25,282 bases of DNA, taken from positions 1 through 25,282 of the IMG/VR virus record IMGVR_UViG_3300021963_000601; one strand, given 5' to 3'. Made by a program: the position numbers and the translations under genes. Numbering within the stretch: position 1 is the first letter of the stretch; each line of letters starts with the position of its first letter. Positions 2,469-25,282 of this stretch are shown in pieces. Origin of the DNA: a virus. The notes beneath the pieces are model-generated. The model saw nothing but the letters and a program-made list of their open reading frames with translations. It ran no database searches and was not told the DNA's origin.

Positions 2469-3485
2469 TTAGATTTTGTTGAGTGCTGATAGATATGCAG
2501 ACATTTTTGGATCGACAGGGGCTACCTTCTTTTCCTCAGTCAACACTTCTACTGGAGCGTCAGTAACAACAGATGCTACTTCAGTCTTCTTACCAGAGAA
2601 ATAATTCTCACGGATAGTCTTGACTTTAGTCTCATAAGTTCCTGCGTCTTCATAAGAAAGTTCTTCAACTAGGCTCATGAACTTTTCAGTTTCAGAGTCA
2701 GTCAAACCTTCGCTGATTTGTTTAACAATCTCTTGACGCTTAGCTTCTGCCAAAGTCTTAGTCAACTCAACGTTGGTTTCGACTTGTTCATTTAGCTTAG
2801 CTTCCAAAGCAGTAATTTTTTCTTCCATTTCGCCAAGTACATCGTACTTTTCTTCTGGAATATCAATATAATGCTCTTCAAAGAGACCTTTCAAGCCAGT
2901 AATGAAACCTTCTAAGATCTCAGACTTGATACCACGCTCAAGGGCTAATTCATTCTGTGCAATCCACTGCTCGGCAATATAGCCAAGATATCCATCAACT
3001 TGTTCAACAATTCCCTGAGTATTCTGCTCGACTTGCTCAGCAAGTTTAGCTTCGAATTCTTCGCTAATACGTGCAACTTCTTCGTTAACACGTGCTAAAA
3101 CAGCTGCTTCATAAATTGTAGCTGCTTTAGATTTAAAATCTTCTGTTAGCTCTTCACCATTGAAAAGAGCATCCATATCTTCTTTCATGCCTTTAGAGGC
3201 AGTTCCTTGACGGATAGGAGCTTGGTCACCATTTTTAGGATTTTGAGATCCTTGTGGTGCAACTTCAGCTTGCTTCTCGTCGTCCACGTTATTACGTGCA
3301 GAGTCTGGATTAGGTGTTTCACCACCGCTTGGTACTGCGTCACCTTGACGGATGACAGCTTTCTCACCAGATGCGCCAGCAGCAACATCTTTAGCGCCTG
3401 TCTCAGCACCACCTAGTTTTGCTTCATCTAGTTTTTGCTTTTTAGATTCAGCTAGAATCTGTGCAATCTTTTGTTCGATAGACAT
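2469..3485 (-). CDS. 22: Prohead core scaffold protein gp22
   Basis: A 338-aa, highly charged, mostly helical protein directly between the protease and capsid genes, which is the place of T4 gp22, the main internal scaffold of the prohead. An N-terminal Gly/Pro/Asn-rich linker (about residues 25-100) leads into MDALFNGEELTEDFKSK, then a long helical section with IYEAAVLARVNEEVARISEEFEAKL and a conserved YLGYIAEQWIAQNELALERGIK block. T4 gp22 is 269 aa, so this one is longer. It contains [LI]xE motifs of the type cut by gp21: ILAE13 and LDE21-AKL. The ribosome site AGGAG is 7 nt before the ATG, and two overlapping late boxes lie upstream at 3522-3536. Confidence 0.92.
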   Translation of the reverse strand: MSIEQKIAQILAESKKQKLDEAKLGGAETGAKDVAAGASGEKAVIRQGDAVPSGGETPNPDSARNNVDDEKQAEVAPQGSQNPKNGDQAPIRQGTASKGMKEDMDALFNGEELTEDFKSKAATIYEAAVLARVNEEVARISEEFEAKLAEQVEQNTQGIVEQVDGYLGYIAEQWIAQNELALERGIKSEILEGFITGLKGLFEEHYIDIPEEKYDVLGEMEEKITALEAKLNEQVETNVELTKTLAEAKRQEIVKQISEGLTDSETEKFMSLVEELSYEDAGTYETKVKTIRENYFSGKKTEVASVVTDAPVEVLTEEKKVAPVDPKMSAYLSALNKI

Positions 3486-3521
3486 TCGTTATCTCCTGTA
3501 ACTGGATTAGTTCTATTAAAT

Positions 3522-3536
3522 TATTTATTATTTATC
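3522..3536 (-). promoter_or_regulatory. Tandem late-promoter boxes for gp22
   Basis: On the minus strand GATAAATA (3529-3536) and AATAAATA (3522-3529) overlap by one base. Each matches seven of eight bases of the T4 late consensus TATAAATA. Expected starts are near 3523 and 3516, giving a 31-38 nt leader that contains the AGGAG site of gp22. The boxes overlap the last codons of the protease gene. Confidence 0.75.
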
Positions 3537-4185
3537 TGATTTTACTCAGAAAATTTTGGAAAGCGTGCAATTTAGCTTCCTCTAGTTGTCGAGTAGAAGC
3601 CTTTCTGATTGAAGCCTTAGCAGCTTCGATTTGTTGCTCCACAAACTTTCCATCAATATAAATCCACTCTTTGTTTTCCATAATACCACGGACAAAAGCG
3701 TCTGGGGCAGATGGGTCTGCCACGATGTCCGCAGCAGTGGATAACATAAAGTCATCCTGAACAACATTAACCCCTTCTTTATTTAATTGAAGAGAGCCAA
3801 GTGCTCTTGAAGAAACACCAAGATTAGCGCCACCGTCTAGAAGACCTCTAGCGATGTTGCCCATTGGAGTCTCTAAAATCTTTGCCTTACCGATGTAGTT
3901 AGTACCTTCTTTGCGAAGGTCAACGATAAGATGGGAGACACGGTCCAAGTTAATAGATGGAGTGTCTGGGTGACCAAGTTCACCGTAAGCACGGTTGTTC
4001 TGAACTTGTTCTTGTAAGTAACGTGCAACTTCCTTGTCCATAACATGCTCTGGGTACATACGCTTGTTACGGTTCTGGATGTTTGACTGTAGGAAGACAC
4101 CTTCAATAAAGTATGTCTTGCCTTTGCCTAGCTTCTCTTCAACGATCAGCTTGGCTTCTTGGATGTCTTCTCTAATTAGTTTCAT
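3532..4185 (-). CDS. 21: Prohead protease gp21
   Basis: A 217-aa homologue of T4 gp21 (212 aa), the serine protease that matures the prohead by cutting scaffold and capsid proteins after [LI]xE. Family hallmarks are YFIEGVFLQSNIQNRNKRMYP (residues 25-45), the catalytic-His motif GELGHP (His72), the catalytic-Ser motif GVSSRALGS (Ser125/126) and SAPDAFV. I set the start at 4185 (MKLIRED...), just after the upstream stop and with AAGG about 7 nt before it. An in-frame ATG at 4233 would add 16 residues encoded inside the preceding gene and is not family-like. Possible self-cleavage sites are IQE10-AKL and LEE203-AKL. Confidence 0.95.
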   Translation of the reverse strand: MKLIREDIQEAKLIVEEKLGKGKTYFIEGVFLQSNIQNRNKRMYPEHVMDKEVARYLQEQVQNNRAYGELGHPDTPSINLDRVSHLIVDLRKEGTNYIGKAKILETPMGNIARGLLDGGANLGVSSRALGSLQLNKEGVNVVQDDFMLSTAADIVADPSAPDAFVRGIMENKEWIYIDGKFVEQQIEAAKASIRKASTRQLEEAKLHAFQNFLSKIR

Positions 4186-5585: not shown

Positions 5586-7171
5586 TTGTTATCTCCTGTT
5601 TGTGTGTCGCTCGTTGGGGCTTCAAGTGCCTGTGGAGCATTCGCTTGTAAATAATTTTGCTGAGCAGCTTGAGTAGCACCTGCTATCTCACCATCACGTG
5701 AAGCAAAGTCCATATGGAAGTCTTCTTCAGCATCCATTTCTTTTTGCATCTGCTCGATATCTTCTTCAGTCTGTTGAAGAACATTCTTCTTAACCCAGTT
5801 CATAGAGAAGAACTTGCCGATGTATGGCTCCATCTGTTGGATAGTAGCAATACGAGCCATCATCACTTCATTGTCTTTCAACTCTGAATAGTGGTTGTCT
5901 TCTACGAAGTCATAGCGGATATCTTGTTTGATCTCGTCCCACTCTTCTGGGCGCATGATATTCTTTGCAGCCAACTGAACACGTAGTGCGTCAGTGAACA
6001 TAGTTGCAAATTTCTTACGCAAACGAGAAACAAACTTGTGAAACTTAATTTCATCTCTAGAGATTTCAACAGAACGACCAATAGAGAACCCTTGTTGTTC
6101 TTGCAAACGACCAACTGGTACGTTGAGTGCGTGATACAACTTGTTCTGGAAGTATTGAATATCTTCGATATCACCAAGATTTTGTCCACCTGGAAGTGTA
6201 GTAATTTCTGTACCTTTACCACCTTCACGGCGAGGCATCCAGAAGTCTTCCATCATAGACATATGTTTACGATCGTCACGCACTTCGCCAGTTGTAGCGT
6301 CATAAACAATCTTATTACGGAACTTATTCATAATGTCCGTAACATATTGCTCAGCCTTAACCTTAGGTAAGTTACCAACGTCGATGTAGAAAATACGACG
6401 TTCTGGTGCACGAGAAATACGATAGATGACCAATGCGTCTTCAATCATCTTCAGCTGATTAACAGCTTTAATTGCTTTGTGTAGGTATGACATCATCATA
6501 CCAGTATTCTGGTCTAGATAACCAGATGGAACATAAACGATAGAGTCAATGGATAACTTGATCCCTTGTGTCGTTTGTTCAGTAATACCTTTGTCGTTAA
6601 ACAGATAGAACTCTTCAACAGCTTTGATAACTTCAACACCTTGTTGGTTCTTTTCTTTAATAACGTTTTTAATACGACGAATCTTACGTGGGTCAATGTA
6701 TCGCAATTCAACGATACCTTGCTTTAAATTCTTTTCGTCGATTAGAATCTGATAGTAAAGGCGTCCATCAATATACCAAGAACGGAAGATATCATGTGCA
6801 CGCTCTTCAAACTTTAAAACTTTGAGAACATTGTCAAATTCTTCGTTAATCTTTTTCTTGATATTTGGAGAAACATCTACTGCGTCTAAGTTCATCTTGA
6901 CGCACTTACCCTGCTCGTCTACAACAATTGCTTCGTTGACGATGTCTTCAATTGCTGAATCGCAATCGGAATATTGTGCGACTTCACGGTAACGGCGGAT
7001 AAGGTCATTTTCGTTTTTAACGACGCCTTCGACGTCCATAACCATACCGTAATAACCACCAGCATTAACACCAGTGTTTATTACGGTACTGCCGTCAACT
7101 GGAGGGGGAGCTACGACACTGTCAAGCTCCCTCTCTTTTTTACGTGTAATCTCGAATCCAAAAAATTGCAT
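5582..7171 (-). CDS. 20: Portal vertex protein gp20
   Basis: A 529-aa homologue of T4 gp20 (524 aa), the dodecameric ring at the unique capsid vertex through which DNA is packaged and to which the neck binds. Recognisable blocks are YREVAQYSDCDSAIEDIVNEAIV (about residues 61-83), WYIDGRLYYQ, ELRYIDPRKIRRI, SGYLDQNTGMMMSYLHKAIKAVNQLKMIEDALVIYRISRAPERRIFYIDVGNLPK, EDFWMPRREGGKGTEITTLPGG and YHALNVPVGRL. The C-terminal tail is acidic and then Ala/Gln-rich. A good AGAAGGA site lies about 9 nt before the ATG. The gene is followed by the core gene with ATGA overlap. Confidence 0.97.
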   Translation of the reverse strand: MQFFGFEITRKKERELDSVVAPPPVDGSTVINTGVNAGGYYGMVMDVEGVVKNENDLIRRYREVAQYSDCDSAIEDIVNEAIVVDEQGKCVKMNLDAVDVSPNIKKKINEEFDNVLKVLKFEERAHDIFRSWYIDGRLYYQILIDEKNLKQGIVELRYIDPRKIRRIKNVIKEKNQQGVEVIKAVEEFYLFNDKGITEQTTQGIKLSIDSIVYVPSGYLDQNTGMMMSYLHKAIKAVNQLKMIEDALVIYRISRAPERRIFYIDVGNLPKVKAEQYVTDIMNKFRNKIVYDATTGEVRDDRKHMSMMEDFWMPRREGGKGTEITTLPGGQNLGDIEDIQYFQNKLYHALNVPVGRLQEQQGFSIGRSVEISRDEIKFHKFVSRLRKKFATMFTDALRVQLAAKNIMRPEEWDEIKQDIRYDFVEDNHYSELKDNEVMMARIATIQQMEPYIGKFFSMNWVKKNVLQQTEEDIEQMQKEMDAEEDFHMDFASRDGEIAGATQAAQQNYLQANAPQALEAPTSDTQTGDNK

Positions 7172-14250: not shown

Positions 14251-17200
14251 TTATTCTCCTAATCTAGAACGTAGTTCATCAACTTCAGCTTTAAGTTCTT
14301 GAACAGCTTTGATGAGCACTGAAACCATCTGAGCGTAATTTAGAGACTTAAACCCGTCGGTTTGCTCTCCGACGAACTCTGGCATAACCTGTTCTACTTC
14401 TTGAGCGATTAAACCAATTTCTGTTGCGTTATTCTTAACATATTTAACAGGACGTAATTGTAGAACCTCATCTAAACCATAAGATAAATCTACGATGTCT
14501 GTTTTTAGATTTATGTCAGAAGAAACTTGGAATCCTGAGCCGTTAAATACACCCCCAGAACTAATGAAGCCTGCTTGTCCACTAGCTCCGTTACCAATAT
14601 AAATACCACCAGTACCACTATACCAGTTTAAATAAATTCCACGAGATGAACCAGCATCTAGGTGTAAGTTACCATTTGTAGTAACAACAGAAGTAATAGA
14701 GTCGTTTCTGCTGATACCATTAACACCATCGCCACCTACGTGTAGGTAAGAACCCCAGCTAGAGTTTGGTCCATATATTGATTTATTATTTCCACTGAAT
14801 GCCAAGTTGCCACTCATAGTTCCACCAGTAGCTGCCAACGCATAGCTACCAACGTTACCTGAATGTACTGCTTGACGAATGTTAGCGCTTAATGCCACTT
14901 CCTTAGCTGTGGTGGGTTTTGCAACCCCAGTAATAGATGTTACTCTATTAGAAGCTCTTGATCCGTATGCAGTATAAACTTTAACATTATATCCATTCCA
15001 ATATCCTTGACTTGGGAACCAGAAGCAAAGATTTCCACCGTTATTAATAGCAACAAGCCCAGTGATATTTAAACCATTAGAAATACCACCATGGTTAATT
15101 ATCGTATCAGAGTAGATATAACCTTGATATAGCAGATCTACAGGGATAATATTACCATAACTATTACCTCTGATCTCAAGAACAAATGGGTCACCGTTGG
15201 TGACTGCGTAGTTGATATTCGTTGTGATTAGCGTACCATTTGGGAAGTCTCTGTCAGAATGGTACCATTCAGTTATATCAATATTTGCAGAACCATTAAA
15301 CGAAGCACCATTTATATTTCTAGCTGTTTGTAAAACAGTAGCTGTAGCAGCATTACCATTGATGTTGATACCCCAAGTACCACTTGCGCCAGATCCAGAC
15401 AGAGATGGTGAATAGCTGGTGTAGTTACCTGCATGCAGGGCTTGGTTGCCACCGACAGTGACTGCACCAGTAGAGCCAGTTACTTTGAATTTCTCGCTGC
15501 CTTTACCGTCGAATACGGTAAAGTTGCGAAAGTAAGAGGCACCTCCGTTGTATCCGAAGTAATTGACCGCAACACCAGCGGTGTCACTTGCGTCAGCACG
15601 TTGCTCAAGACTGTCATCACGCAACGTAATGCGAGCAGAACCCACGTTGCCAGATGTGTACCAGTTGCCAGTGCCAGTACCGCCACTTAGCGATAAGTAG
15701 CTCGACAGCGCAGAGCTAGTGATATATCCACTTGGGTTAGTGCTGTTGTATGGTGTGAAGCCAAGAGCAGTAGTAACCTGGCTTGAGCTGATTGATCCAG
15801 TATAAGTTGGTAAGTCAGCAGACGTTAATGTAGTACCACTAGTTGCACGCCCTTTAGCGTCAACAGTAATCTTAGTATATGTACCAGCAGTCACACCAGA
15901 TGCTGCTAAGGTAGCATTAGTGATTGCTGTTCCAGTAGTACCAGAAAGAGTTAAATCGCCACCAGTTACAGAAATTGATCCAGAAGGAATTGATACTGCT
16001 GTAGTAGAAACTGCTGTTACCAAACCTTTAGCGTTAACAGTAACTGTTGGAATTTGAGTAGAAGAACCAAATGTACCTACATTTGCATTAACTGTTGCTA
16101 GAGTAAGAGCAGTAGATCCACCAGTAGAACCAGTGCCCGTTACGTCACCAGTGAATGTCAAAGATCCAGAAATAGTAGCAGTAGATGCACTTGTAATACG
16201 ACCTTGTGCGTCAACAGTGATAACAGGTACAGATGTTGACGAACCGTAAGAACCTGCTGTTACTGTAGTGTTTGCTAGTGCAATAGTTACTGCAGAGGAA
16301 CCAGTATAAGAAGTTCCTGATAAACCAGTACCAATAGTTAGAGCGTTTGGATTTGCTGCAGTAATAGTAATATCAGCAGATCCGTTAAATGCTACACCGT
16401 TAATGTTGCGAGAAGTTGCAAGAGTAGTGGCAGTCGATGCATTACCACTCAATGCTGCAGTAATAGTACCAGCAGAGAAGTTACCACTTGCGTCACGAGC
16501 AACAATAGTAGAAGCTGTGTTCAAGTTAGTAGCATTACTTGTTACTGTGAATGTAGCAGCGCCAGAACCGTTATATGTAGCTGAACCAGAAAGACCAGTT
16601 CCAGAAACGCCTAATGTTAATGTGTTAAGAGTGCCACCTAGCGCAACACCAGAGATAGTGCTGTTGGCTAATTGAGTATTAAGGATACCAGCTGTAGCAC
16701 TTAGCTGACTGGTTGTAATGCCACTTAAACGAGCTAGTGGTAATGTACCGCTACTGATGTTAGCTGCGTTAGTTGTATCTGTTGTAGCTGACGCAGCTAG
16801 CCCAGTAATTTTGCTGGTTGCGATAGAACCAGCCAACATTGTATTAGTAACTGTACCAGTATCACCTGTTGTTACGATAGTTCCTGTGGTAGCTGGGATT
16901 GTTAAAACTGTACCAGTACCTACAGCAGCAGTCGGAATAATCTGTACAGTACCAGAAGTAGAACCTGGAAGTGTTACACTAGAAATACCAGTTAACGCTA
17001 AGTTGGCACTAGCACGGTTTAGAGCGACTGCAGTAGTACCAATGTTAACAGTAGAGTTGCCAAGGACTGCAGAAGGAATAGTTCCTGTCAAGTTGCCCGC
17101 AGTTAGAGATGTCAAGTTTGCGCCAGAAACTGCGCCAAAAGAAGCAGACCAAGTACCACTAGTGATTGTACCGACAGTTGCTAAGTTGACTGCAGAAGTA

Positions 17201-18039
17201 ATAGAGGCTTGCGCAGCGCCAGTAACTGTTGCCGCAGTCCCAGTAGTATTTTGGTTAAGTGTTGGAATATCAGCTGCTACTAATGCTCTGAACGTTGGAG
17301 CACCTGCAGCACCGTTCGGCGCTGCAAAAACAGTGTTAGCTGTTTGAGAAGCTAAGGCAGCAGTTAATGTTCCAGTTGTTGTTACTGGAGAACCGCTAAC
17401 GCTGAAAATATTGGGAAGAGATAGAGCGACTGAAGTTACAGTACCAGTACCACCAACTGTAATCCACTGCAATCCACTACCAGTTGATGCTAAAACTTGT
17501 CCATTAGATCCAACATTTCCGCCAATACTAATAGCTGGCACAGATAATGCACCAGCATCAGTAAGAGCAAGAATAGTTGAAGTATACGCACTATTGACGA
17601 TTTCTAGAGCGCCAGTACTATTAATTCTAAAATACTTGTTTGGATTTGTTGCGGTTCCAAACGTATTGGTTGCTTCTAAGAACCCATGATATCCAGCACC
17701 ACCACGCTGATTATAACCAGCCAGCTTAACTGAAGAGTTATTTCCATCACCACCAGAGAATGTAGTGATACCAGATAAAGTCACTGCCCCAGAAAGAGTA
17801 CCAGAAAGCACACCACCGTTAATTGTCGGTGATGTTAGAGTTTTATTTGTTAGGGTTTGAGTTCCAGCTAGTGTTACGACGTTGTCGTCGATCGTGAAAC
17901 TCTTGATGACGTTTGATGCGTTCTTAAAGAACAGTTTACCATCGGTGTAATTTAACGCTAATTCACCGTAGTCTAAGTCTGTAGTTAGAGGAACTTTTGA
18001 TGTGACTGAAGACTTCTTCAGTAATACTTTATTTGCCAT
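14251..18039 (-). CDS. Long tail-fibre protein with C-terminal S74 chaperone
   Basis: A 1262-aa repetitive fibre protein, probably involved in host recognition. The N-terminus (MANKVLLKKSSVTSKVPLTT..DYGELALNY) is a fibre attachment type seen in marine T4 relatives. The long middle is Gly/Ser/Thr/Ala-rich beta repeats (TLTNKTLTSPTI, GTLTAAL, GNASTATTLATSRNINGV). ALHAGNYTS and AVHSGN motifs occur in the distal part. The last about 90 residues are an intramolecular chaperone of the peptidase S74 family: SDINLKTDI, IGLIAQEVEQVMPEFV and a C-terminal coiled coil. Ser1174 and Lys1179 have the 5-residue spacing of the endosialidase catalytic dyad, so self-cleavage before Ser1174 is expected. A patch at about 15430-15720 is richer in GC. 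The start has AAGGG upstream. Confidence 0.88.
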   Translation of the reverse strand: MANKVLLKKSSVTSKVPLTTDLDYGELALNYTDGKLFFKNASNVIKSFTIDDNVVTLAGTQTLTNKTLTSPTINGGVLSGTLSGAVTLSGITTFSGGDGNNSSVKLAGYNQRGGAGYHGFLEATNTFGTATNPNKYFRINSTGALEIVNSAYTSTILALTDAGALSVPAISIGGNVGSNGQVLASTGSGLQWITVGGTGTVTSVALSLPNIFSVSGSPVTTTGTLTAALASQTANTVFAAPNGAAGAPTFRALVAADIPTLNQNTTGTAATVTGAAQASITSAVNLATVGTITSGTWSASFGAVSGANLTSLTAGNLTGTIPSAVLGNSTVNIGTTAVALNRASANLALTGISSVTLPGSTSGTVQIIPTAAVGTGTVLTIPATTGTIVTTGDTGTVTNTMLAGSIATSKITGLAASATTDTTNAANISSGTLPLARLSGITTSQLSATAGILNTQLANSTISGVALGGTLNTLTLGVSGTGLSGSATYNGSGAATFTVTSNATNLNTASTIVARDASGNFSAGTITAALSGNASTATTLATSRNINGVAFNGSADITITAANPNALTIGTGLSGTSYTGSSAVTIALANTTVTAGSYGSSTSVPVITVDAQGRITSASTATISGSLTFTGDVTGTGSTGGSTALTLATVNANVGTFGSSTQIPTVTVNAKGLVTAVSTTAVSIPSGSISVTGGDLTLSGTTGTAITNATLAASGVTAGTYTKITVDAKGRATSGTTLTSADLPTYTGSISSSQVTTALGFTPYNSTNPSGYITSSALSSYLSLSGGTGTGNWYTSGNVGSARITLRDDSLEQRADASDTAGVAVNYFGYNGGASYFRNFTVFDGKGSEKFKVTGSTGAVTVGGNQALHAGNYTSYSPSLSGSGASGTWGININGNAATATVLQTARNINGASFNGSANIDITEWYHSDRDFPNGTLITTNINYAVTNGDPFVLEIRGNSYGNIIPVDLLYQGYIYSDTIINHGGISNGLNITGLVAINNGGNLCFWFPSQGYWNGYNVKVYTAYGSRASNRVTSITGVAKPTTAKEVALSANIRQAVHSGNVGSYALAATGGTMSGNLAFSGNNKSIYGPNSSWGSYLHVGGDGVNGISRNDSITSVVTTNGNLHLDAGSSRGIYLNWYSGTGGIYIGNGASGQAGFISSGGVFNGSGFQVSSDINLKTDIVDLSYGLDEVLQLRPVKYVKNNATEIGLIAQEVEQVMPEFVGEQTDGFKSLNYAQMVSVLIKAVQELKAEVDELRSRLGE
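14254..14520 (-). other. S74 self-cleaving chaperone domain of fibre gene
   Basis: It encodes residues 1174-1262 of the fibre protein. The S74 family folds trimeric fibres and then cuts itself off. The SDINLK motif with Ser and Lys five residues apart and the IGLIAQEVEQVMPE core are visible. The final MVSVLIKAVQELKAEVDELRSR stretch is a coiled coil. Confidence 0.85.
17825..17850 (-). repeat. 26-bp repeat shared by the two fibre genes
   Basis: It is identical to 18323-18348 in the neighbouring fibre gene, in the same orientation, and encodes the TNKTLTSPT fibre motif in both proteins. It could allow recombination between the two genes. Confidence 0.8.
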
Positions 18040-18063
18040 TGCAATCCCTTAAAAAAGGTAAGA

Positions 18064-18083
18064 GGGGTAGTAAAAACTACCCC
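18064..18083 (-). promoter_or_regulatory. Intergenic hairpin between the fibre genes
   Basis: On the minus strand GGGGTAG and CTACCCC pair as a perfect 7-bp stem with a 6-nt loop (TTTTTA). The T run comes only after seven intervening bases (TCTTACC), so it is a poor intrinsic terminator. It starts about 5 nt after the transcription start predicted from the box at 18094-18101, so it may instead be a 5'-end hairpin on the next message. A weak terminator of the upstream gene remains possible. Confidence 0.6.
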
Positions 18084-18093
18084 ATTACTCAAT

Positions 18094-18101
18094 TATTTAG
18101 T
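18094..18101 (-). promoter_or_regulatory. Late-promoter-like box (ACTAAATA) before S74 fibre gene
   Basis: Minus-strand ACTAAATA overlaps the stop codon of the upstream fibre gene. It matches the last six bases of the T4 late consensus. Predicted +1 is near 18088, with a 49-nt leader holding the hairpin at 18064-18083 and the AAGGG site. The same CTAAATA variant appears before two other genes in the window. Confidence 0.45.
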
Positions 18102-20712
18102 ATGTTCCACCATCGATGTTGAAGTTATCTAATGTTGAAACAGAAACGCCAGCACCGTTTAGGTTACCACCAATATTAACAGTACCGCCGATACCAACAC
18201 CGCCTGTCACAACAACAGCGCCACTTGTATTGCTAGAAGATGCTGTGATGTTAGAGAATGTTACAACACCAGAATTTGTGTGGTTACCAGAGAAAGTACC
18301 AGACAGCGCACCAGCGTTAATAGTCGGTGATGTTAGAGTTTTATTTGTGAACGTTTCTGCGCCAGCTAAAGTAGCTAGAGTACCAGTAGTAGGTAGTGTT
18401 ACGCTAGTTGTACCAGTTACAGTTAGTGTGGTAGCAAATGCACCACTAGTAGTAAGGTTACCACCTAGAGTAATAGTGCTAGAACCGTTGTTTACACCAG
18501 TACCACCGTAGACTGGAGAAACGATAGTGCCTTGCCAAGTACCAGTACCGATAGTACCAAGGGTGGTGATAGAGCTTTGACCAACGTACGTAGAAGCGAT
18601 GTCAATAGCATCAGCAGTAATAGAAATACGGTTTGCGGTTCCAACTGCATCTATTGTATTGCCGTTCTTAGTTAAACCAGCACCAGCAGTGATTTGGCCA
18701 GCGCCAGAGAACTGAACGAAAGTAATACCAGTAGTGCCAATAGTGATAGCGCCAGTGTTAGTGCAAACGTATCCGTTATCGTTACCTACAGTACCTTCTT
18801 CGACGAAAGTGAATGCGCCTGGAGTAATTTCAGTGTTTTGGTCAGCGTCTACTGAACGAGTCAACACCCAGTTTGTAGAAGCAGAACCGACGTTGCTAAC
18901 TACGTAGAAGCCGTTCTGTAACGAAGTTGTTTGATCCTTAACAAGAACACGATCACCAACAGAAAGAACGATACTGTCAATCGTAAGCGCTGCTTGTGTT
19001 CCAGAGTTAGTAAGAGTTGCACCAACACCAGAAGAGCCGTTAGAATAAGTAGCTGTTAAGTTAGAAGTAGTTGTTACACGAACTGAATCTTTAACATCTA
19101 GACCAGTCTTAACTGCATCAACGTATGACTTTGTTGCGGCATCGCTAGACTGAGTAGGTTCAGCAACAGAAGTGATTCTCTTGTTAGCAACATCAACAGT
19201 ACCAGTACCAGTTGGAACCAAGTTAACACTATTGTTACCTGCGGCAGCAGTAACAGAAAGGTTACCAGAAGCACCAGTAATACTTGTGACAGTTGCTACA
19301 CCAAGTGTTGGTGTTGTTAACGTTGGACTATTAGCGAAAACTAGAGCACCAGAACCTGTTTCGTCGGAGATAACTCCAGCCAACTCAGCAGAACTAGTAG
19401 AAGCAAATACGTTTAGTTTATTTGCCACATAAGCAACAGTTCCACCAGAACCGAATGCTACAGATGACCCATCAGTACCACTAAATGTTAATGTATTGCT
19501 TGCAGTTAGAGTTTTAGCATTAGCGACAGTTAATGTGCCAGTAGTTGAGCTAATTGTTAAACCGTTGATAGATGTAGCAGTTGCAGCACCAAGAACAGGC
19601 GTTACAAGAGTTGGACTATTAGCGAAAACTAGAGCACCAGAACCTGTTTCGTCAGAAACAGCAGTCGCCAGCTGAGCAGACGTCATAGTAATGGTATTAG
19701 AACCAAAGCTAATAGTCTTGTTTGTAAATGTATCAGCAGTATTCTTACCAACTAGTGTATCAGTTGCTGCTGGTAGAGTTAGTGTAGTAGAACCTGCAGC
19801 AGCACTTGCAACTACAGTAGTAGTACCAGATGTTGAACCAGTGAAAATCGCACCAGCAGAACCGATTGTTGGAGTAGTTAACTGTGCGCTAGTTAGAGTC
19901 TTATTTGTAAGAGTCTGAGTACCAGTTAGTGTAGCAACTGTACCATCGATATTAAAGGTTACGCTAGTTGCAGCACCAACTTTGGAAACGATGGAATCGA
20001 TACCAGTTCCACCAACAAACGTCATTGTATCTGTTAGTAGTGCAAACGCTGAAGTGCCAGTATCACCAGCAATGTTTAGGTTAGATGCTACCGAAGCAGT
20101 AGAAGCTGCAGTTATCTGTCCTTGCGCATTGATAGTTAAAATTGGGATCGAAGTAGCAGAACCATAACTACCCGCAGTAACACCAGTGTTGGTGATAGAA
20201 AGAGTTGTGGTATTACCAGCATCGTTCACAGTAGAAGTGATACCTGTGCCAGCAACAACAGTACCACCAACTAAGTCATAGATGTACTCGGCAAGAGTAT
20301 CAGTTGTGCCGTTAACATATGCATTATTAAGAACTAGCTTGCCTGTACCGTTCGGGGATAGAACGATATCGCCGTTAGTATTAGTAGAAGATAGCGTGTT
20401 TGATGTTAGTTGTAAGTTACCAACCAACCATCTGTCTATAGTTCCTGTTGCAGAAAGAATAGGAATAGACTTAGCGCTTGTGTTTAATGTACCGCCAGCG
20501 CCAGCTGCGTCGATAAGACCAGTGTAATACTTACCACCGATAACGATACGGTTAGCAGCGTTACCAGCAGTTTCTGTTCCCATACCGATGTATAGGCGAT
20601 CACCACCATTTGAACCGTTGTCGGCTAGTGCTGAATATGCTAATTCACCAGCAGCTAGGGTACTTGGATTACCGCTAACTGAGGAACGCTTAATTCTAAT
20701 AATAGAAGCCAT
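18097..20712 (-). CDS. Long repetitive tail-fibre protein
   Basis: An 871-aa fibre-type protein. The N-terminus MASIIRIKRSSVSGNPSTLAAGELAYS followed by GGDRLYIGMG and RIVIGGKYYTGLID is an attachment module found in tail fibres of marine T4 relatives. The body is beta-repeat sequence with TLTNKTLTS, GTGTWQGTIVSPVYGGTG and a duplicated DETGSGALVFANSPTL unit. A separate domain near residues 535-680 reads AATKSYVDAVKTGLDVKDSVRV...GDRVLVKDQ...NGFYVVSNVG...WVLTRSVDAD, which is recurrent in phage fibres. No S74 domain is present, so folding may need another chaperone. A GGAG ribosome site lies 10 nt before the ATG. Confidence 0.85.
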   Translation of the reverse strand: MASIIRIKRSSVSGNPSTLAAGELAYSALADNGSNGGDRLYIGMGTETAGNAANRIVIGGKYYTGLIDAAGAGGTLNTSAKSIPILSATGTIDRWLVGNLQLTSNTLSSTNTNGDIVLSPNGTGKLVLNNAYVNGTTDTLAEYIYDLVGGTVVAGTGITSTVNDAGNTTTLSITNTGVTAGSYGSATSIPILTINAQGQITAASTASVASNLNIAGDTGTSAFALLTDTMTFVGGTGIDSIVSKVGAATSVTFNIDGTVATLTGTQTLTNKTLTSAQLTTPTIGSAGAIFTGSTSGTTTVVASAAAGSTTLTLPAATDTLVGKNTADTFTNKTISFGSNTITMTSAQLATAVSDETGSGALVFANSPTLVTPVLGAATATSINGLTISSTTGTLTVANAKTLTASNTLTFSGTDGSSVAFGSGGTVAYVANKLNVFASTSSAELAGVISDETGSGALVFANSPTLTTPTLGVATVTSITGASGNLSVTAAAGNNSVNLVPTGTGTVDVANKRITSVAEPTQSSDAATKSYVDAVKTGLDVKDSVRVTTTSNLTATYSNGSSGVGATLTNSGTQAALTIDSIVLSVGDRVLVKDQTTSLQNGFYVVSNVGSASTNWVLTRSVDADQNTEITPGAFTFVEEGTVGNDNGYVCTNTGAITIGTTGITFVQFSGAGQITAGAGLTKNGNTIDAVGTANRISITADAIDIASTYVGQSSITTLGTIGTGTWQGTIVSPVYGGTGVNNGSSTITLGGNLTTSGAFATTLTVTGTTSVTLPTTGTLATLAGAETFTNKTLTSPTINAGALSGTFSGNHTNSGVVTFSNITASSSNTSGAVVVTGGVGIGGTVNIGGNLNGAGVSVSTLDNFNIDGGTY
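19322..19365 (-). repeat. 44-bp perfect direct repeat in fibre gene (copy 1)
   Basis: It is identical to 19610-19653, with an offset of 288 bp (96 codons), so recombination between copies keeps the frame. It encodes DETGSGALVFANSPT in both units. Confidence 0.9.
19610..19653 (-). repeat. 44-bp perfect direct repeat in fibre gene (copy 2)
   Basis: The second copy of the unit at 19322-19365. The regions around both copies are similar but not identical, which suggests duplication followed by divergence with the 44-bp core kept or recently converted. Confidence 0.9.
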
Positions 20713-20726
20713 CTTTTATTTCTCCG

Positions 20727-20954
20727 TTAATATTCTCCAGCTTCCATATTCTGTGCATCTAGCGTAGTGGAAGCTGTCCATTTATTAGTTGTTGTTTTAT
20801 ACACTAACACCGCCCCGTTAGTTAATTGTTGCAAATCTACGTCTAACATATTTTCAATGCTATTTGGCGCTATAGAAGTTGTGGCTGCAGTAACAGCTAC
20901 ACCTTCATTAGATGTTCCATACGGGTCGGAAACAATTGCAATGATGTCAGACAT
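20727..20954 (-). CDS. Small fibre-associated protein
   Basis: A 75-aa protein. The C-terminal half (DVDLQQLTNGAVLVYKTTTNKWTAST) is the 'L-x-N/D-G-x-VLVY-x-x-x-x-x-x-W' motif common in phage fibre and fibre-linker proteins. The N-terminal half (MSDIIAIVSDPYGTSN) is short and beta-like. It starts 1 nt after the stop of the preceding gene, without a clear ribosome site, which suggests coupled translation. It precedes the long fibre genes and probably connects or decorates the fibre. The exact role is unknown. Confidence 0.6.
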   Translation of the reverse strand: MSDIIAIVSDPYGTSNEGVAVTAATTSIAPNSIENMLDVDLQQLTNGAVLVYKTTTNKWTASTTLDAQNMEAGEY

Positions 20955-20955
20955 G

Positions 20956-21291
20956 TTAAATTTTTGTTATTTCGGGGTTCACTAAAACAATACCTTCTAC
21001 AACACGTGTTCGTTCGCCATTGGGTGAACGAACTTCTACATCGTACAGGTATCTTCCTGCGGGGATTAGTCTAGATTCTTCTGAAGACAGTTCAATACGA
21101 ACTCTTCCTTGTACTGGATTCGTTATAGAACTAGTAAAATTATACGCAGTCGAAGACTGGTATGACTTTCTCATCTGAGAAGCAACAGTGAAATTTGTTA
21201 GGTCCAGGGGTGTGCCGTCGGTGCCAGATACCGTGACATATGTTCTATAGAAAGAACCCTGATCTACATATAGGTTTGAAACTGTGGCCAC
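20956..21291 (-). CDS. Small beta-sandwich virion protein (BppU N-domain-like)
   Basis: A 111-aa protein starting at a GTG codon with GGAG 8 nt before it; no ATG lies nearby in frame. The sequence has the pattern of Ig-like baseplate N-terminal domains: YVDQGSFYRTYVTVSGTDGTPLDLTNFTVASQMRK, then RVRIELSSEESRLIPAGRYLYDVEV and a final VVEGIVLVNPEITK. In such domains the D-G-x-P-x-D-L turn and the P-A-G-x-Y-x-Y-D-V strand are characteristic. It is the first gene of the long minus-strand late operon and probably contributes to the tail tip or fibre base. Confidence 0.65.
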   Translation of the reverse strand: MATVSNLYVDQGSFYRTYVTVSGTDGTPLDLTNFTVASQMRKSYQSSTAYNFTSSITNPVQGRVRIELSSEESRLIPAGRYLYDVEVRSPNGERTRVVEGIVLVNPEITKI

Positions 21292-21343: not shown

Positions 21344-21385
21344 TAAAAGCTGCGAAGCGATAACATCACTTTTAATGGAGATAAT

Positions 21386-22036
21386 ATGGAAAATAACCAA
21401 GCACCACAAAACGAAACATCGTCAGCAGACGAACCTAATGTGGTCAAATTTTTTGAAAAACAGGCGTTCGCCACCCCAATTATTAGCTATATCAATCAAA
21501 AACACGACGAGTTCAAACTAGAATTCATCAAGTTGGCTGATAAAATGCAATCTTCTGGGTTCGATGGCGACATCCTTCAACTTGAAGATGAGCCAGCTGT
21601 AAAATTGTTAAAAGAAGCAATTTTCTCAGTTTGTGCAGAGTTGAAAGAATTTGGCTTTGATAACAGATACCCGTTTATTATGGGATCTAACGTTATCTAC
21701 CAACAAAGAAACGAACACATTCCAGCGCACTCGTATGAGTTCGTTCCGCTCGTTCTAACATATATTGTCAATGAGCCTGAGCAAGTGACACCGACTACAT
21801 ATTATATCGACCCTCGTGGTGGTGTCCAAACACTTCGTGAAAAGGTTAGTCAAAACCTAGTCGGAACTTATTTTGGAATCAACGCCCACGAAGGCGAAAT
21901 TATTGCAACTCCAGGTTACCTAACTCGATATACTGAGAGTAACCTAGATAGCCAAACATATCTTTCCATCAATGTTATGGTAGGTTACACCTCAGGGTCT
22001 GCAACAGCAACTTCTAAGAATGCCAATGCTGTTTAA
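21386..22036 (+). CDS. Degenerate 2OG-oxygenase-fold protein
   Basis: A 216-aa protein. Its C-terminal half looks like the double-stranded beta-helix of the putative 2OG-Fe(II) oxygenase families common in marine phages: EHIPAHSYEFVPLVLTYIV (110-128), TTYYIDPRGG (137-146, family 'f-x-DPR'), GEIIATPGYLTRYTESN (170-186) and TYLSINVMV (191-199). The expected iron ligands are not there: no HxD/E in the first motif, Arg181 where the distal His normally lies, and Tyr192 where an Arg binds 2-oxoglutarate. So it may be non-catalytic, or use other residues. The N-terminal about 95 residues are helical, and the C-terminus is a Ser/Ala/Asn tail. GGAG lies 5 nt before the ATG. Its stop overlaps that of the radical SAM gene, tail to tail. 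Confidence 0.6.
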   Translation: MENNQAPQNETSSADEPNVVKFFEKQAFATPIISYINQKHDEFKLEFIKLADKMQSSGFDGDILQLEDEPAVKLLKEAIFSVCAELKEFGFDNRYPFIMGSNVIYQQRNEHIPAHSYEFVPLVLTYIVNEPEQVTPTTYYIDPRGGVQTLREKVSQNLVGTYFGINAHEGEIIATPGYLTRYTESNLDSQTYLSINVMVGYTSGSATATSKNANAV

Positions 22037-23463
22037 CCAGCAACAACTGGAATTCCTACAGACTTTCGGACTTTCCAAGAACGCTTAGTTCCATTCGACT
22101 TAACAAAGTCGATATCAATTACGGGGACAGATGTGATGCCATCTCGGCGGATCTTCTGTCCCCTAATTTCTGTTAGGATTAGTCCATCAGTCATAAAGAA
22201 TAAACTAGCGGCTAACATGGCGTTATTGTACCAGAACAAGTTCTCACAAGCCTGCTCCCAGTATTGATTCTCTAGGAACAAACACGCACCTTGGCACAGT
22301 TGAACAACTGGACAGTTAGGGCATTCTGGACGAGTAGACCAATGATAAGAAGTATGAAGACGGATATTATCAAAGTCTTCGATGTTTCCAAGATTGTGCT
22401 TCGTTAAAGAAGAAGTGTTCTGACAAGTTGTGACGTTACCCTTCATATCAATCGCAATGTTATCGTCACGATCCATACCGCACTTCTGTCCGATAGTGTT
22501 TGCTGGGCGACCCTGTGCAATACCCTCGAAAAAGCTCTTTAATTTAGTATGAATAGTCATACTAAAGTGATTCTCGCCTTTGATTGTTTCCCAGAATAAA
22601 GCGTGAAGAATTTCTTTCTGCTCGTCAGTAGTTCTTAAGGAGTGTTGCATTCCAGATTCATCGTAAGGTAGCATCAATTCTTCAGTAGTTACATGAATTT
22701 GCCCTTGTTCTATCTCAGGCTTTAGTTTCTCCCAAATAAAGTCACGAACTGCAACAAGAGAGACGTTCTCTCGAGTCAACACTGCATTAAACCCTACTCG
22801 ATTTTGACCCATAACTTTTAAGGCTGTTACAATACCTTCACGCATTTGAGGGTCGTCTAGTGGATCAGGACCACGGTTTTGCGCATGAAGAGGTCCATCG
22901 TGAGAAATGCCGATACTGAACGCCAAATCATTGAGCCACTTAACCTTTTCTTTATCCAGCAAAGAACCATTAGTGACCATATTGAATGACGCATTTGGGA
23001 AGAAGTCACGAATTCTCTCTGCCAGAGGCTTCAGGGTTTTCCAATACACCATTGGTTCGCCACCCCAAAATTCAATACGAACTTTATCGTATTTACTGAT
23101 ATTGAAGTTATTGCGAATCTTATTAACCAATTCTTCAGCGTCTTCTGGACCACCGACTGGATCGTGCGGTTGGTGTGCTTGGTTACAATAAGAGCAAGCA
23201 AAGTTGCACTTTAATCCCATCGTAATCTTCAGAATCTTAACAGATTTTGTTTTCTTACCGTGCGTTTCTGGTGAAGATGGGTTGGTAACTGGCGCTGGAC
23301 GCCATACCTTGAGGTTTACATTATACTGTAAGTTAGGCGAGATAACTGTTAAGTCTGGTTTATCGGAAGTCTCTTCCCAATACATCTCAGAAGTCATTGG
23401 GTCGTAGACCATGATCTGCTCAACATCATTCGAACCACGCATTACTAATTGAAATGCTGACAT
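22033..23463 (-). CDS. Radical SAM/SPASM protein-modifying enzyme
   Basis: A 476-aa radical SAM enzyme with three predicted iron-sulphur clusters. The SAM-binding cluster is CNFACSYC (Cys86, 90, 93), followed by WGGEPM (133-138), the TNGSLL strand (164-169) and ISHDGP (186-191). The C-terminal SPASM domain has a full Cys set: Cys328, Cys347 (in DMKGNVTTC), the C-x2-C-x5-C-x3-C block at 381/384/390/394, and Cys406. SPASM enzymes modify peptides or proteins, for example sulfatase maturases and ribosomal-peptide maturases. No typical short precursor peptide is seen nearby, so the substrate is unknown; a virion protein is possible. An extra N-terminal part (1-75) and C-terminal part (about 425-476) flank the core. 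AGGAG and a late box precede it. Confidence 0.9.
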   Translation of the reverse strand: MSAFQLVMRGSNDVEQIMVYDPMTSEMYWEETSDKPDLTVISPNLQYNVNLKVWRPAPVTNPSSPETHGKKTKSVKILKITMGLKCNFACSYCNQAHQPHDPVGGPEDAEELVNKIRNNFNISKYDKVRIEFWGGEPMVYWKTLKPLAERIRDFFPNASFNMVTNGSLLDKEKVKWLNDLAFSIGISHDGPLHAQNRGPDPLDDPQMREGIVTALKVMGQNRVGFNAVLTRENVSLVAVRDFIWEKLKPEIEQGQIHVTTEELMLPYDESGMQHSLRTTDEQKEILHALFWETIKGENHFSMTIHTKLKSFFEGIAQGRPANTIGQKCGMDRDDNIAIDMKGNVTTCQNTSSLTKHNLGNIEDFDNIRLHTSYHWSTRPECPNCPVVQLCQGACLFLENQYWEQACENLFWYNNAMLAASLFFMTDGLILTEIRGQKIRRDGITSVPVIDIDFVKSNGTKRSWKVRKSVGIPVVAG

Positions 23464-23483
23464 AAAAAACTCCTATAATTTAA

Positions 23484-23491
23484 CATAAATA
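23484..23491 (+). promoter_or_regulatory. Late-promoter box for 2OG oxygenase gene
   Basis: Plus-strand CATAAATA, seven of eight matches to the T4 late consensus. Predicted +1 near 23497, a 25-nt leader. It faces the minus-strand box at 23504-23511 across 12 bp. Confidence 0.7.
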
Positions 23492-23503
23492 AATCTTACC
23501 TAC

Positions 23504-23511
23504 TATTTATT
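23504..23511 (-). promoter_or_regulatory. Late-promoter box for radical SAM gene
   Basis: Minus-strand AATAAATA, seven of eight matches to the T4 late consensus. Predicted +1 near 23498, with a 35-nt leader carrying AGGAG. It forms an inverted repeat with the plus-strand box at 23484-23491. Confidence 0.7.
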
Positions 23512-23521
23512 CTTCTCTACT

Positions 23522-24292
23522 ATGAAACAATTTGACGTTGACTACTGCGAATCGCCATTAGACATGGAACTATTGAGTCCATACAAAAACCTACTGTATT
23601 GTAAATTAGATTTGCCTGAACTTCCAGATTTCAATAAAATAGATTTAGAACGTTTTGTGAATGAGACCAATGATTCCGTTGTATTAAAAAACATAGAATC
23701 TGCAGGATCGGATAGGTTTGCGTCTTGGGCGAATGTAAAATATCCTTGGAAAACCGCTTGGATAAAGTCTAGAGACAATGTTTGGTTTAATGGATTTGAT
23801 ACAAAATTCCCACAGCTGGTAAACTATATATCAAACTTCCCAATAGACTCAATAGATGATTTAGCTTCGGGTCAAATACTAGCTCAAAAAGAAAACACAG
23901 AAGCATTTCCGCACACAGACCCTGATCCTTGGTTTGGGTTTAGGGTTTACCTTTCAGAAGAATCCAATAGATCTACATTATATTACCATCCAAGTTACAC
24001 TGAACTTGAAACAAGACCGACCACTTGGATTATTGAAAATGGAATAACAAAAAAGAATGATCTGAGCAAATATTACGATTATTCTAAAAAACTATGTGTG
24101 AAAAATAATACAGGTAAGTTTGCGTTTATGTTAAATTCAATCAGAGGTTGCCATGGGGTTGAGGGTAACATAGAGAGAGAATGTGACAGATTAGTGTTAT
24201 TGCTATTTTTCAGAAAGATTAATTCTAGCAAATTATCTGACTTGTTTAGCCGAAGCGTAGTTAAGTATAAAGATTCTTGTATTTGGAGATAA
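23522..24292 (+). CDS. 2OG-Fe(II) oxygenase-like hydroxylase
   Basis: A 256-aa protein with the residue pattern of 2-oxoglutarate/iron dioxygenases. FPHTDPDPWFGFRVYLSE (129-146) gives the HxD ligands His131 and Asp133. IRGCHGVEGNIERECDRLVLLLFF (207-230) gives the distal His211 and, twelve residues on, Arg223 for 2-oxoglutarate. Strands between them (STLYYHP, GKFAFMLN) fit the double-stranded beta-helix. Such enzymes hydroxylate proteins, small molecules or nucleic acids; the substrate is not evident. No ribosome site is seen before the ATG. It is followed after 3 nt by the next plus-strand gene, whose GGAG lies in its last codons. Base composition looks more AT-rich than the structural genes. 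Confidence 0.72.
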   Translation: MKQFDVDYCESPLDMELLSPYKNLLYCKLDLPELPDFNKIDLERFVNETNDSVVLKNIESAGSDRFASWANVKYPWKTAWIKSRDNVWFNGFDTKFPQLVNYISNFPIDSIDDLASGQILAQKENTEAFPHTDPDPWFGFRVYLSEESNRSTLYYHPSYTELETRPTTWIIENGITKKNDLSKYYDYSKKLCVKNNTGKFAFMLNSIRGCHGVEGNIERECDRLVLLLFFRKINSSKLSDLFSRSVVKYKDSCIWR

Positions 24293-24295
24293 TAT

Positions 24296-24895
24296 ATGAT
24301 AAAAGTTTTAACGAAAGAGCACGAGTCTCAAATTATTGAGATTATTAATTCTCATGAAAAGTCTGTAAAGACTGTTAAATCTGAGTATAGAAACCAAAAA
24401 ATAATTTCATACACGCTTAGATCTCTAGGCGCTGAAAACAATTATATTATTGGCTGGTTTGACGGGGAACAACTAATTTCATTTTTACACGCAAAAGTTA
24501 TTTTAGGAATTCCATTCTGGCAATTAGTATACTGGACAACTAGAAATACTAGTAGGCATTTTTCCAAATCTGGTATAATACAATTACTGGATAATTGCTG
24601 CGAGGTTATGGAAGATAATAAACTTTATAATTTTTATCTTGCAAGACCTCTGAAATATGGAATAACAAAATACTTTGTTCAAGCTAAAATGACTAGTAGA
24701 TATAATATGTCTTACGAAGAAATTGTGTTTGAGGGTAGTAAATCTAACTACGCTTTGTTTAATTCCATATTCTTCGGAGATATGAAATCACCATCAGATA
24801 TGGTTATTATGTCTATATGCTTAAAGCCAGAACATAGAAAATTTGACACTATGCCAGAATCGTATTATAAGTACGAAAATCCCTTACCCAAATAA
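24296..24895 (+). CDS. Unassigned protein, possible GNAT acyltransferase
   Basis: A 199-aa protein I cannot assign firmly. The N-terminus MIKVLTKEHESQIIEIINSH, the strand pair NNYIIGWFDGEQLISFLHAKV (about 48-68) and the helix SGIIQLLDNCCEVMEDNKLYNFYLAR (about 92-117) resemble the order of elements in GNAT N-acetyltransferases. The usual acetyl-CoA loop (Q/R-x-x-G-x-G/A) is not clear; the nearest stretch is RHFSKSGI. It starts from GGAG and is coupled to the 2OG oxygenase gene, so the two probably act together. It is AT-rich. Its last 31 nt overlap the convergent desaturase gene. Confidence 0.45.
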   Translation: MIKVLTKEHESQIIEIINSHEKSVKTVKSEYRNQKIISYTLRSLGAENNYIIGWFDGEQLISFLHAKVILGIPFWQLVYWTTRNTSRHFSKSGIIQLLDNCCEVMEDNKLYNFYLARPLKYGITKYFVQAKMTSRYNMSYEEIVFEGSKSNYALFNSIFFGDMKSPSDMVIMSICLKPEHRKFDTMPESYYKYENPLPK

Positions 24896-25282
24896 CCTTC
24901 AATATCAATTTCCCACCAGTTTTCAGTTAAAATCAATTTACCTGGAGATGCATGGTGATTATTGTGCCACCCAAATCCCATGCCAAATATACCAAGCCAA
25001 AAGTTATTGGTAGATTTATCAGCAGTTTCGTGATTTCTATAACCACTTCTGTGACAAAAATAGTTAATTAAACCCAATCTTAAAAAATCAATACAATAAG
25101 CCAAACAATAAAGACTCAATAAAACTGGGTCTATTAAAAATAAAATAGCACAGAATGCATAAATTATTTTATAGTGGTGTTTGTGGAAAAACGAATAAAA
25201 CTTATCTCTAGATATTTCAATTGCTAATCTCTTAGCGAACCTTTCCTGCATATACTCTTTATCGTTGCTGCCTTGTGGGAAA
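24865..25282 (-). CDS. Fatty acid desaturase, C-terminal part (cut by window edge)
   Basis: The frame is open from the right window edge, so the true start lies outside; the Met at 25251 is probably internal because the family is about 300 aa and its first His boxes are missing here. About 139 codons are visible. Two membrane segments (IIYAFCAILFLIDPVLLSLYCLAYCI region) are followed by NYFCHRSGYRNHETADKSTNN and the third histidine box GWHNNHHASP, then WWEIDI. This is the end of DesC-like delta-9 acyl-lipid/acyl-CoA desaturases, di-iron membrane enzymes that add a double bond to fatty acids. After WWEIDI only about 15 residues remain, somewhat short. The end overlaps the convergent gene at 24296-24895 by 31 nt. 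Confidence 0.85.
   Translation of the reverse strand, partial: FPQGSNDKEYMQERFAKRLAIEISRDKFYSFFHKHHYKIIYAFCAILFLIDPVLLSLYCLAYCIDFLRLGLINYFCHRSGYRNHETADKSTNNFWLGIFGMGFGWHNNHHASPGKLILTENWWEIDIEGYLGKGFSYL

Follow-up and report, generated by a model that had tools for sequence, protein, structure and literature searches.

A phage radical SAM/SPASM enzyme paired with C-terminal (Asn-Cys)n tail proteins: a probable maturase of tail-fibre tips

Known SPASM maturases and the phage enzyme

Radical SAM maturation has so far been described for peptides of bacteria and for a small number of their proteins, and the closest described systems are SPASM enzymes of this kind. The ranthipeptide maturase PapB joins cysteines to Asp or Glu side chains by thioethers at spacings of 0-6 residues (PMC9413430), and NxxcA carries beta-thioethers (PMC8326336). 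QhpD, the maturase of quinohemoprotein amine dehydrogenase, works on a whole protein and makes Cys thioethers to Asp or Glu; the thioether former AlbA has seven SPASM cysteines and the anaerobic sulfatase maturase anSME has eight (PMC5682303). In phages, radical SAM genes have been reported in the host-recognition clusters of pelagimyophages (PMC7029224) and noted in Campylobacter phages (PMC2853527); both sets were treated as cassettes or metabolic genes. Our search of the open-access literature returned no paper linking a phage radical SAM enzyme to an (Asn-Cys)n, or (NC)n, tail protein and no report of a virus particle matured by radical SAM chemistry; of 5.39 million open-access papers, none contains NCNCNC or CNCNCN in connection with such phages.

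The window, by which we mean the whole stretch of DNA analyzed, is a complete IMG/VR virus record of 25,282 bases and a fragment of a T4-like phage. The product of its minus-strand gene at 22033-23463 is a complete radical SAM/SPASM enzyme of the dicluster type. A full Cys triad and seven SPASM cysteines had been read from the sequence in the initial annotation, and both hold. The triad is CNFACSYC (C86, C90, C93), and the SPASM pattern runs C328-X13-G-X4-C347 ... C381-X2-C384-X5-C390-X3-C394 ... C406. These ten are the only cysteines of the protein, all are cluster ligands, and all ten are invariant in an alignment of 37 relatives, in which the EFWGGE and SHD core motifs are likewise kept. 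The protein scores above the cut-offs of both the radical SAM superfamily (PF04055, 44.4 bits versus 29.5) and the SPASM dicluster subgroup (TIGR04085, 36.9 bits versus 27).

Comparison with the known maturases places the enzyme near several of them and within none. PapB (NF047865) is its top NCBIfam match (2e-22) and shares the radical SAM and SPASM domains, but the enzyme reaches only 79.9 bits against a cut-off of 340, and two of its relatives score 67.8 and 55.7 bits. PapB also acts on a peptide with a leader and CX3D/E motifs, whereas the candidate substrate here is a C-terminal (NC)n run on a phage tail protein. QhpD (TIGR03906), which likewise has a protein substrate, matches at 3e-18 over most of the enzyme's length, yet the score is 65.6 bits against 453 and the QhpD substrate is a cellular dehydrogenase subunit, not a virion protein. 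The founding SPASM enzyme anSME (TIGR03942; PDB 4k36-4k39) has the same fold, and the homologue in Achromobacter phage JWF carries an anSME annotation; however, the enzyme scores 73.2 bits against 349.5, the substrate motif differs, and its SPASM cysteines number seven rather than eight. Because the scores lie far under every curated maturase cut-off, including those of the nearest sequence models (PapB, anSME, QhpD and other peptide maturases), we regard the enzyme as a separate family. PHROG 1802, 'radical SAM domain-containing protein', is the same phage family (7.5e-66; Achromobacter phages JWF and 2-1), but PHROG assigns it no function. A profile of the enzyme gives 558-622 bits for family members and at most 34 for other radical SAM proteins in two genomes.

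An AlphaFold2 model of the enzyme (pLDDT 91) has as its closest PDB fold the SCIFF maturase CteB (TIGR03974; PDB 5why and 5wgg, 'Thioether Bond Formation'; E 2e-13), also a dicluster SPASM enzyme, and the matches that follow are anSME (ranks 4-11), ChlB, TigE and SuiB. Sequence identity to CteB is only 16%, though, and the score against its model is 48 bits versus 425. CteB has an N-terminal RRE (wHTH), a domain that many but not all thioether-forming maturases have, whereas none is seen in the phage enzyme, whose residues 1-75 are modelled as three strands without RRE helices. With no canonical RRE seen at this end, substrate recognition must differ from that of most RiPP maturases. A close match to a small-molecule or nucleoside-modifying SPASM enzyme, which would count against a protein maturase, appeared in neither the family-model nor the fold searches.

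The locus in the window and in a sister contig

On its minus strand the window carries what we take, from our reading of the translations, to be portal, tail tube, sheath, terminase and neck genes, together with tail-fibre genes. The features used below are as follows.

22033..23463 (-): radical SAM/SPASM enzyme gene, predicted protein maturase, 476 aa, ATG start
23185..23208 (-): radical SAM CX3CX2C motif, C86/C90/C93, invariant in 37/37 relatives
22246..22482 (-): SPASM segment with seven Cys (C328, C347, C381, C384, C390, C394, C406), TIGR04085 above cut-off
23504..23511 (-): T4-late-type promoter box AATAAATA ahead of the enzyme gene
23470..23474 (-): ribosome-binding site AGGAG of the enzyme gene
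21386..22036 (+): 2OG-Fe(II) oxygenase gene (phrog_81, 8.6e-12)
23522..24292 (+): divergent gene, 256 aa, with HxD...H residues as in 2OG oxygenases
14251..21291 (-): tail-fibre block, after the cassette
14251-18039 (-): S74 fibre, member of the block
18097-20712 (-): fibre, member of the block
20727-20954 (-): unnamed member of the block
20956-21291 (-): L-shaped fibre assembly-like gene, member of the block
25282: right edge of the record, equal to position 6169 of the sister contig L014

The late-type box, the AGGAG site and the neighboring tail-fibre genes that the initial annotation had pointed out are all in place. Six of the seven ATAAATA cores on the structural-gene strand sit 22-58 bases upstream of gene starts (binomial p = 2e-7), and the genes behind them are the enzyme, the tail sheath, the tail tube, 20956-21291 and, twice, 2469-3485. 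A TATAAATA-like box of the T4 late type, common to the structural genes, thus precedes the enzyme gene, which is by its box type a predicted late gene. The divergent gene at 23522-24292 matched no family in a search; a late-type box of its own, CATAAATA, precedes it at 23484-23491. At the other end, the 2OG-Fe(II) oxygenase gene is convergent with the enzyme gene, overlaps its 3' end by 4 bases and is a conserved neighbor among T4-like relatives. We considered such oxygenases as an obligatory partner and rejected the idea: four such or similar families lie near only 11 of the 27 clusters, which makes them accessory at most. Two further ORFs complete this end of the window: 24296-24895 (+), of 199 aa, divergent to the enzyme, conserved in L014 and without a family match (possibly GNAT-like by eye), and 24865-25251 (-) at the contig end, the C-terminal part only of a fatty-acid desaturase gene.

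The initial annotation saw no leader-core precursor. This stands within the window, where no ORF of at least 50 aa holds a Cys-repeat run and hence no substrate is encoded; it does not stand for the locus, because the 25.3-kb fragment ends before the partner gene. Sister contig L014 encodes an enzyme that is 100% identical, in DNA that is 96.6% identical over window positions 21348-23609. Ahead of the enzyme L014 has a fibre, an (NC)n protein (2771-3172), an Ig-like partner that we call f0 (3188-4171), another conserved gene, two desaturases and divergent genes. By synteny rather than direct observation, the (NC)n protein and f0 map 3.0-3.4 kb and 2.0-3.0 kb past the right edge of the window. 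Since base 25282 corresponds to L014:6169, we expect the window phage's own (NC)n gene some 3 kb past that edge, on the enzyme's strand. The desaturases, a tandem pair at L014:5078-6585, lie between the (NC)n protein and the enzyme.

Among T4-like relatives the gene order runs as follows: a large structural gene, a gene for about 80 aa, a tail fibre with an S74 chaperone, the (NC)n protein, f0 (about 310-390 aa), the radical SAM gene, further genes, an opposite-strand 2OG oxygenase and more tail fibres. The (NC)n protein of this group has 117-133 aa and ends in NCNCNCACNCNCACNCNC, directly before the stop, or in a near variant. In the relatives, then, a Cys-rich gene lies next to the enzyme gene, as for thioether maturases in general.

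Pairing of the enzyme with C-terminal (Asn-Cys)n runs

The enzyme family and a C-terminal (NC)n tail co-occur almost always, in fixed order and on the same strand. In a forward test, 80 loci were fetched with an enzyme-only profile, and the 56 new loci with at least 3 kb upstream were counted. A (CX)3+C run lies upstream on the same strand in 46 of these, and shorter C-terminal NCNC tails are found upstream in 5 more, for a total of 51. One locus has a CNC protein downstream, 4 enzyme loci with long upstream flanks have no such tail, and tails on the opposite strand number zero. Such a run occurs in only 4 of 106 control loci, with either strand counted. All 13 enzyme clusters (60% identity) contain at least one member locus with a CNC gene.

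The reverse test started from the run. A degenerate (NC)n DNA pattern scanned over IMG/VR gave 104 stretches, and 50 records were examined whole; a PF04055 radical SAM protein is present in 40 of them. Among the 10 others, 3 have no such ORF, 5 are off-frame or of low complexity, and 2 are contigs that end less than 400 bases from the run. With Ser in place of Cys, an (Asn-Ser)n control pattern gives a radical SAM protein in 1 of 50 records. The search for a co-occurring partner gene in related phages, proposed in the initial annotation, therefore succeeds in both directions (51/56 versus 4/106, and 40/50 versus 1/50), with the caveat that the two tests are not fully independent, the enzyme profile having been built partly from pattern-found members. 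A first enzyme-only scan, independent of the DNA pattern, yields the same picture. In loci with both genes, the enzyme is always downstream of the run on the same strand, at a gap of 4 bases to about 5.4 kb.

The pairing spans T4-like phages, siphovirus-like phages and a few bacterial genomes. In bacterial genomes the (NC)n DNA pattern mostly hits simple (AACTGC)n-type repeats without a radical SAM gene, which serve as an internal negative control; the only convincing coding runs in that scan, loci L314 and L317, both have one. In the bacterial class sampled with the enzyme profile, 2 of 289 genomes encode the family, and in a bacterial genome found blind by the profile a fibre ending in ...NCNCNCNCNCDCSNCWNCK is followed by the Ig-like partner and then by the enzyme. 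The (AACTGC)n-type microsatellites of Noviherbaspirillum, Paraburkholderia and others (L254, L263, L274, L302) mimic (NC)n in translation and are unrelated. The radical SAM proteins of Campylobacter phages were considered as members of the same system and rejected, their similarity covering residues 77-197 only and the inspected locus, L029, having no (NC)n.

The (NC)n tail caps either tail-fibre proteins, recognized by PHROG tail-fibre domains, or small separate proteins encoded right after the fibre. The intervening residue of its CXC units is Asn in 63%, Ala in 14%, Asp in 13% and Gln in 5%. The run lies 0-7 residues before the stop or is followed by a Hint (intein-like) autoprocessing domain that starts at its last cysteine, as in CTC-FPAGT (L018:5721-7220, L028:7679-9130, L087:2-847, L402, L421 and Achromobacter phages JWF and 2-1). 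This position suggests that Hint self-cleavage could free the tip or expose a modified C-terminus. The Ig-like partner f0 is conserved in 19 of 27 clusters, usually between the (NC)n and enzyme genes, and in some phages families f26 and f29 replace it beside the enzyme. Its C-terminal domain is predicted well as Ig-like, with intimin domains among the nearest (E 0.007), and a fold search against the PDB gave no significant match. Only G and K or P residues are near-invariant in f0, so that no reactive residue is invariant. Neither the repeat nor the partner has a PHROG, Pfam or NCBIfam model.

At the level of gene pairing, these loci support the earlier proposal that a late-expressed maturase modifies a component of the virion, possibly a fibre or the tip of the tail. 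The alternative offered alongside it, late modification of a host protein, gains nothing from these data.

Proposed chemistry, its alternatives and accessory genes

We consider it probable that the enzyme is a phage-specific maturase of tail-fibre tips that staples the (NC)n run by thioethers. The parts of this model differ in strength. The co-occurrence argues strongly that the run is the substrate; analogy to known enzymes makes a thioether a reasonable candidate for the bond; and what the modification would do at the fibre tip we can only suggest. Late in infection, the phage would produce the enzyme and the Ig-like partner along with the fibre or small tail protein that ends in the (Asn-Cys)n run. 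With SAM, the enzyme would generate a 5'-deoxyadenosyl radical that takes hydrogen from Asn, Asp or Ala side chains, or from alpha carbons, in the run, and the resulting carbon would be joined to neighboring Cys sulfurs with the SPASM clusters assisting. The tip, at the end of the tail that faces the receptor or the membrane, would then be held by several thioether staples, which would make it rigid and protect it from reduction.

We favor thioethers from Cys to Asn or Asp, perhaps also Ala, because of the fold, the seven SPASM cysteines and the precedents of PapB, NxxcA and QhpD. Exactly seven such cysteines fit the thioether formers. The run has N-x-x-C at nearly every Asn, and the X residues of its CXC units include acceptor types known from ranthipeptides.

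These features bear differently on the other explanations. The run could remain unmodified, binding metal or forming disulfides, while the enzyme acts elsewhere on the fibre, for example on the Ig-like partner or on another Cys-rich segment. CXC repeats can bind metals, the partner is widely kept and usually encoded between the two genes, and the (NC)n proteins of the T4-like group and of several other phages carry a further Cys-rich segment ahead of the run. However, the partner family lacks invariant reactive residues, some clusters with enzyme and (NC)n have no such partner, and no other feature follows the enzyme as closely as the run does, so we find this explanation quite unlikely. Oxidation or rebuilding of the run's cysteines, to formylglycine or by another Cys conversion as in anaerobic sulfatase maturases, would account for the full-length similarity to TIGR03942 (2e-20), the rank of the anSME folds and the annotation of the JWF gene. 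It is disfavored because of the cluster pattern, with seven and not eight SPASM cysteines, the TIGR03942 score is far below its cut-off, and a sulfatase-type motif leaves the Asn/Asp/Ala alternation unexplained; we judge it very unlikely.

To epimerization of alternate residues, which would give a D/L-alternating beta-helix as a polytheonamide-like tip or pore, we give even less credence. The run does alternate strictly every two residues, T4-like members often have Ala every six residues (CNCNCACNCNCAC), close to the beta-6.3 periodicity, and PoyD epimerizations are two residues apart (PMC8326336). Yet known radical SAM epimerases such as PoyD and EpeE need an additional conserved Cys as hydrogen donor (PMC8326336), and the reading is disfavored because the family has no conserved Cys beyond its ten ligands. 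EpeE also comes far lower than CteB and anSME in the fold search, and epimerization leaves the obligatory Cys unexplained. That the enzyme is an auxiliary metabolic or host-directed one, acting on a host protein, cofactor or small molecule and merely parked near tail genes, is scarcely credible: previous treatments of phage radical SAM genes as cassettes or metabolic genes (PMC7029224, PMC2853527) and metabolic-looking neighbors such as the desaturases and a DctP protein speak for it, but the (NC)n pairing is near-universal and keeps its order and strand in phage loci that otherwise differ greatly, and the family is rare in the bacterial class sampled. A bolder idea, which we regard as unlikely, is a RiPP-like warhead at the tail tip: the enzyme and its Ig-like partner, joined in some phages by 2OG oxygenases, would turn (Asn-Cys)n into a needle, either covalently stapled or D/L-alternating, and this needle would anchor in the outer membrane or pass through it. 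If true, such post-translational construction would be a class of virion chemistry without known counterpart.

For the preferred model of thioether stapling, the kind of enzyme, a SPASM protein or peptide maturase, is known; the novelty lies in the class of substrate, in the setting at a phage tail tip and in the cassette being conserved. If fibre tips are indeed matured in this way, they would provide the first case, in the literature that we searched, of a virus particle matured by a radical enzyme dedicated to it. For the many phage 'radical SAM domain' proteins that are listed with no function (PHROG 1802) or have been taken for metabolic cassettes, the pairing points to a definite substrate and partner and to chemistry that can be tested. 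Should the tip prove to be crosslinked, the functional form would be missed by any fibre model, receptor study or recombinant fibre preparation that leaves the modification out. With two isolated phages that have the system, JWF and 2-1 of Achromobacter, tests can begin now.

Several loci have additional or duplicated genes. A protein of about 400 aa, ATP-grasp-like by eye and without a Pfam match, lies directly after the radical SAM gene at L031:3520-4740 and in the same position in L439 (one cluster and a bacterial genome). A TRAP-type solute-binding protein, DctP (PF03480, 8.5e-44; L003:9794-10741), has equivalents in about 20 relatives; in T4-like relatives its gene lies two genes after the radical SAM gene, and with no obvious signal peptide it is odd cargo for a tail module. 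Near the radical SAM gene in three enzyme clusters is a protein of about 350 aa with a PP-loop ATPase signature (SGGIDST) and a weak QueC-like match only (L003:10759-11820, L017:474-1577, L128:1823-2851), which together with family f8 (about 108 aa) may be a further modifying factor. In L049, L060, L079, L088, L102, L104, L131 and L133, two or three genes for (NC)n proteins of about 90-170 aa lie in tandem upstream of a single radical SAM gene, and each protein has its own C-terminal run. Conversely, two radical SAM genes in tandem follow one (NC)n fibre in L042, L092, L094 and L099, possibly for two successive modifications.
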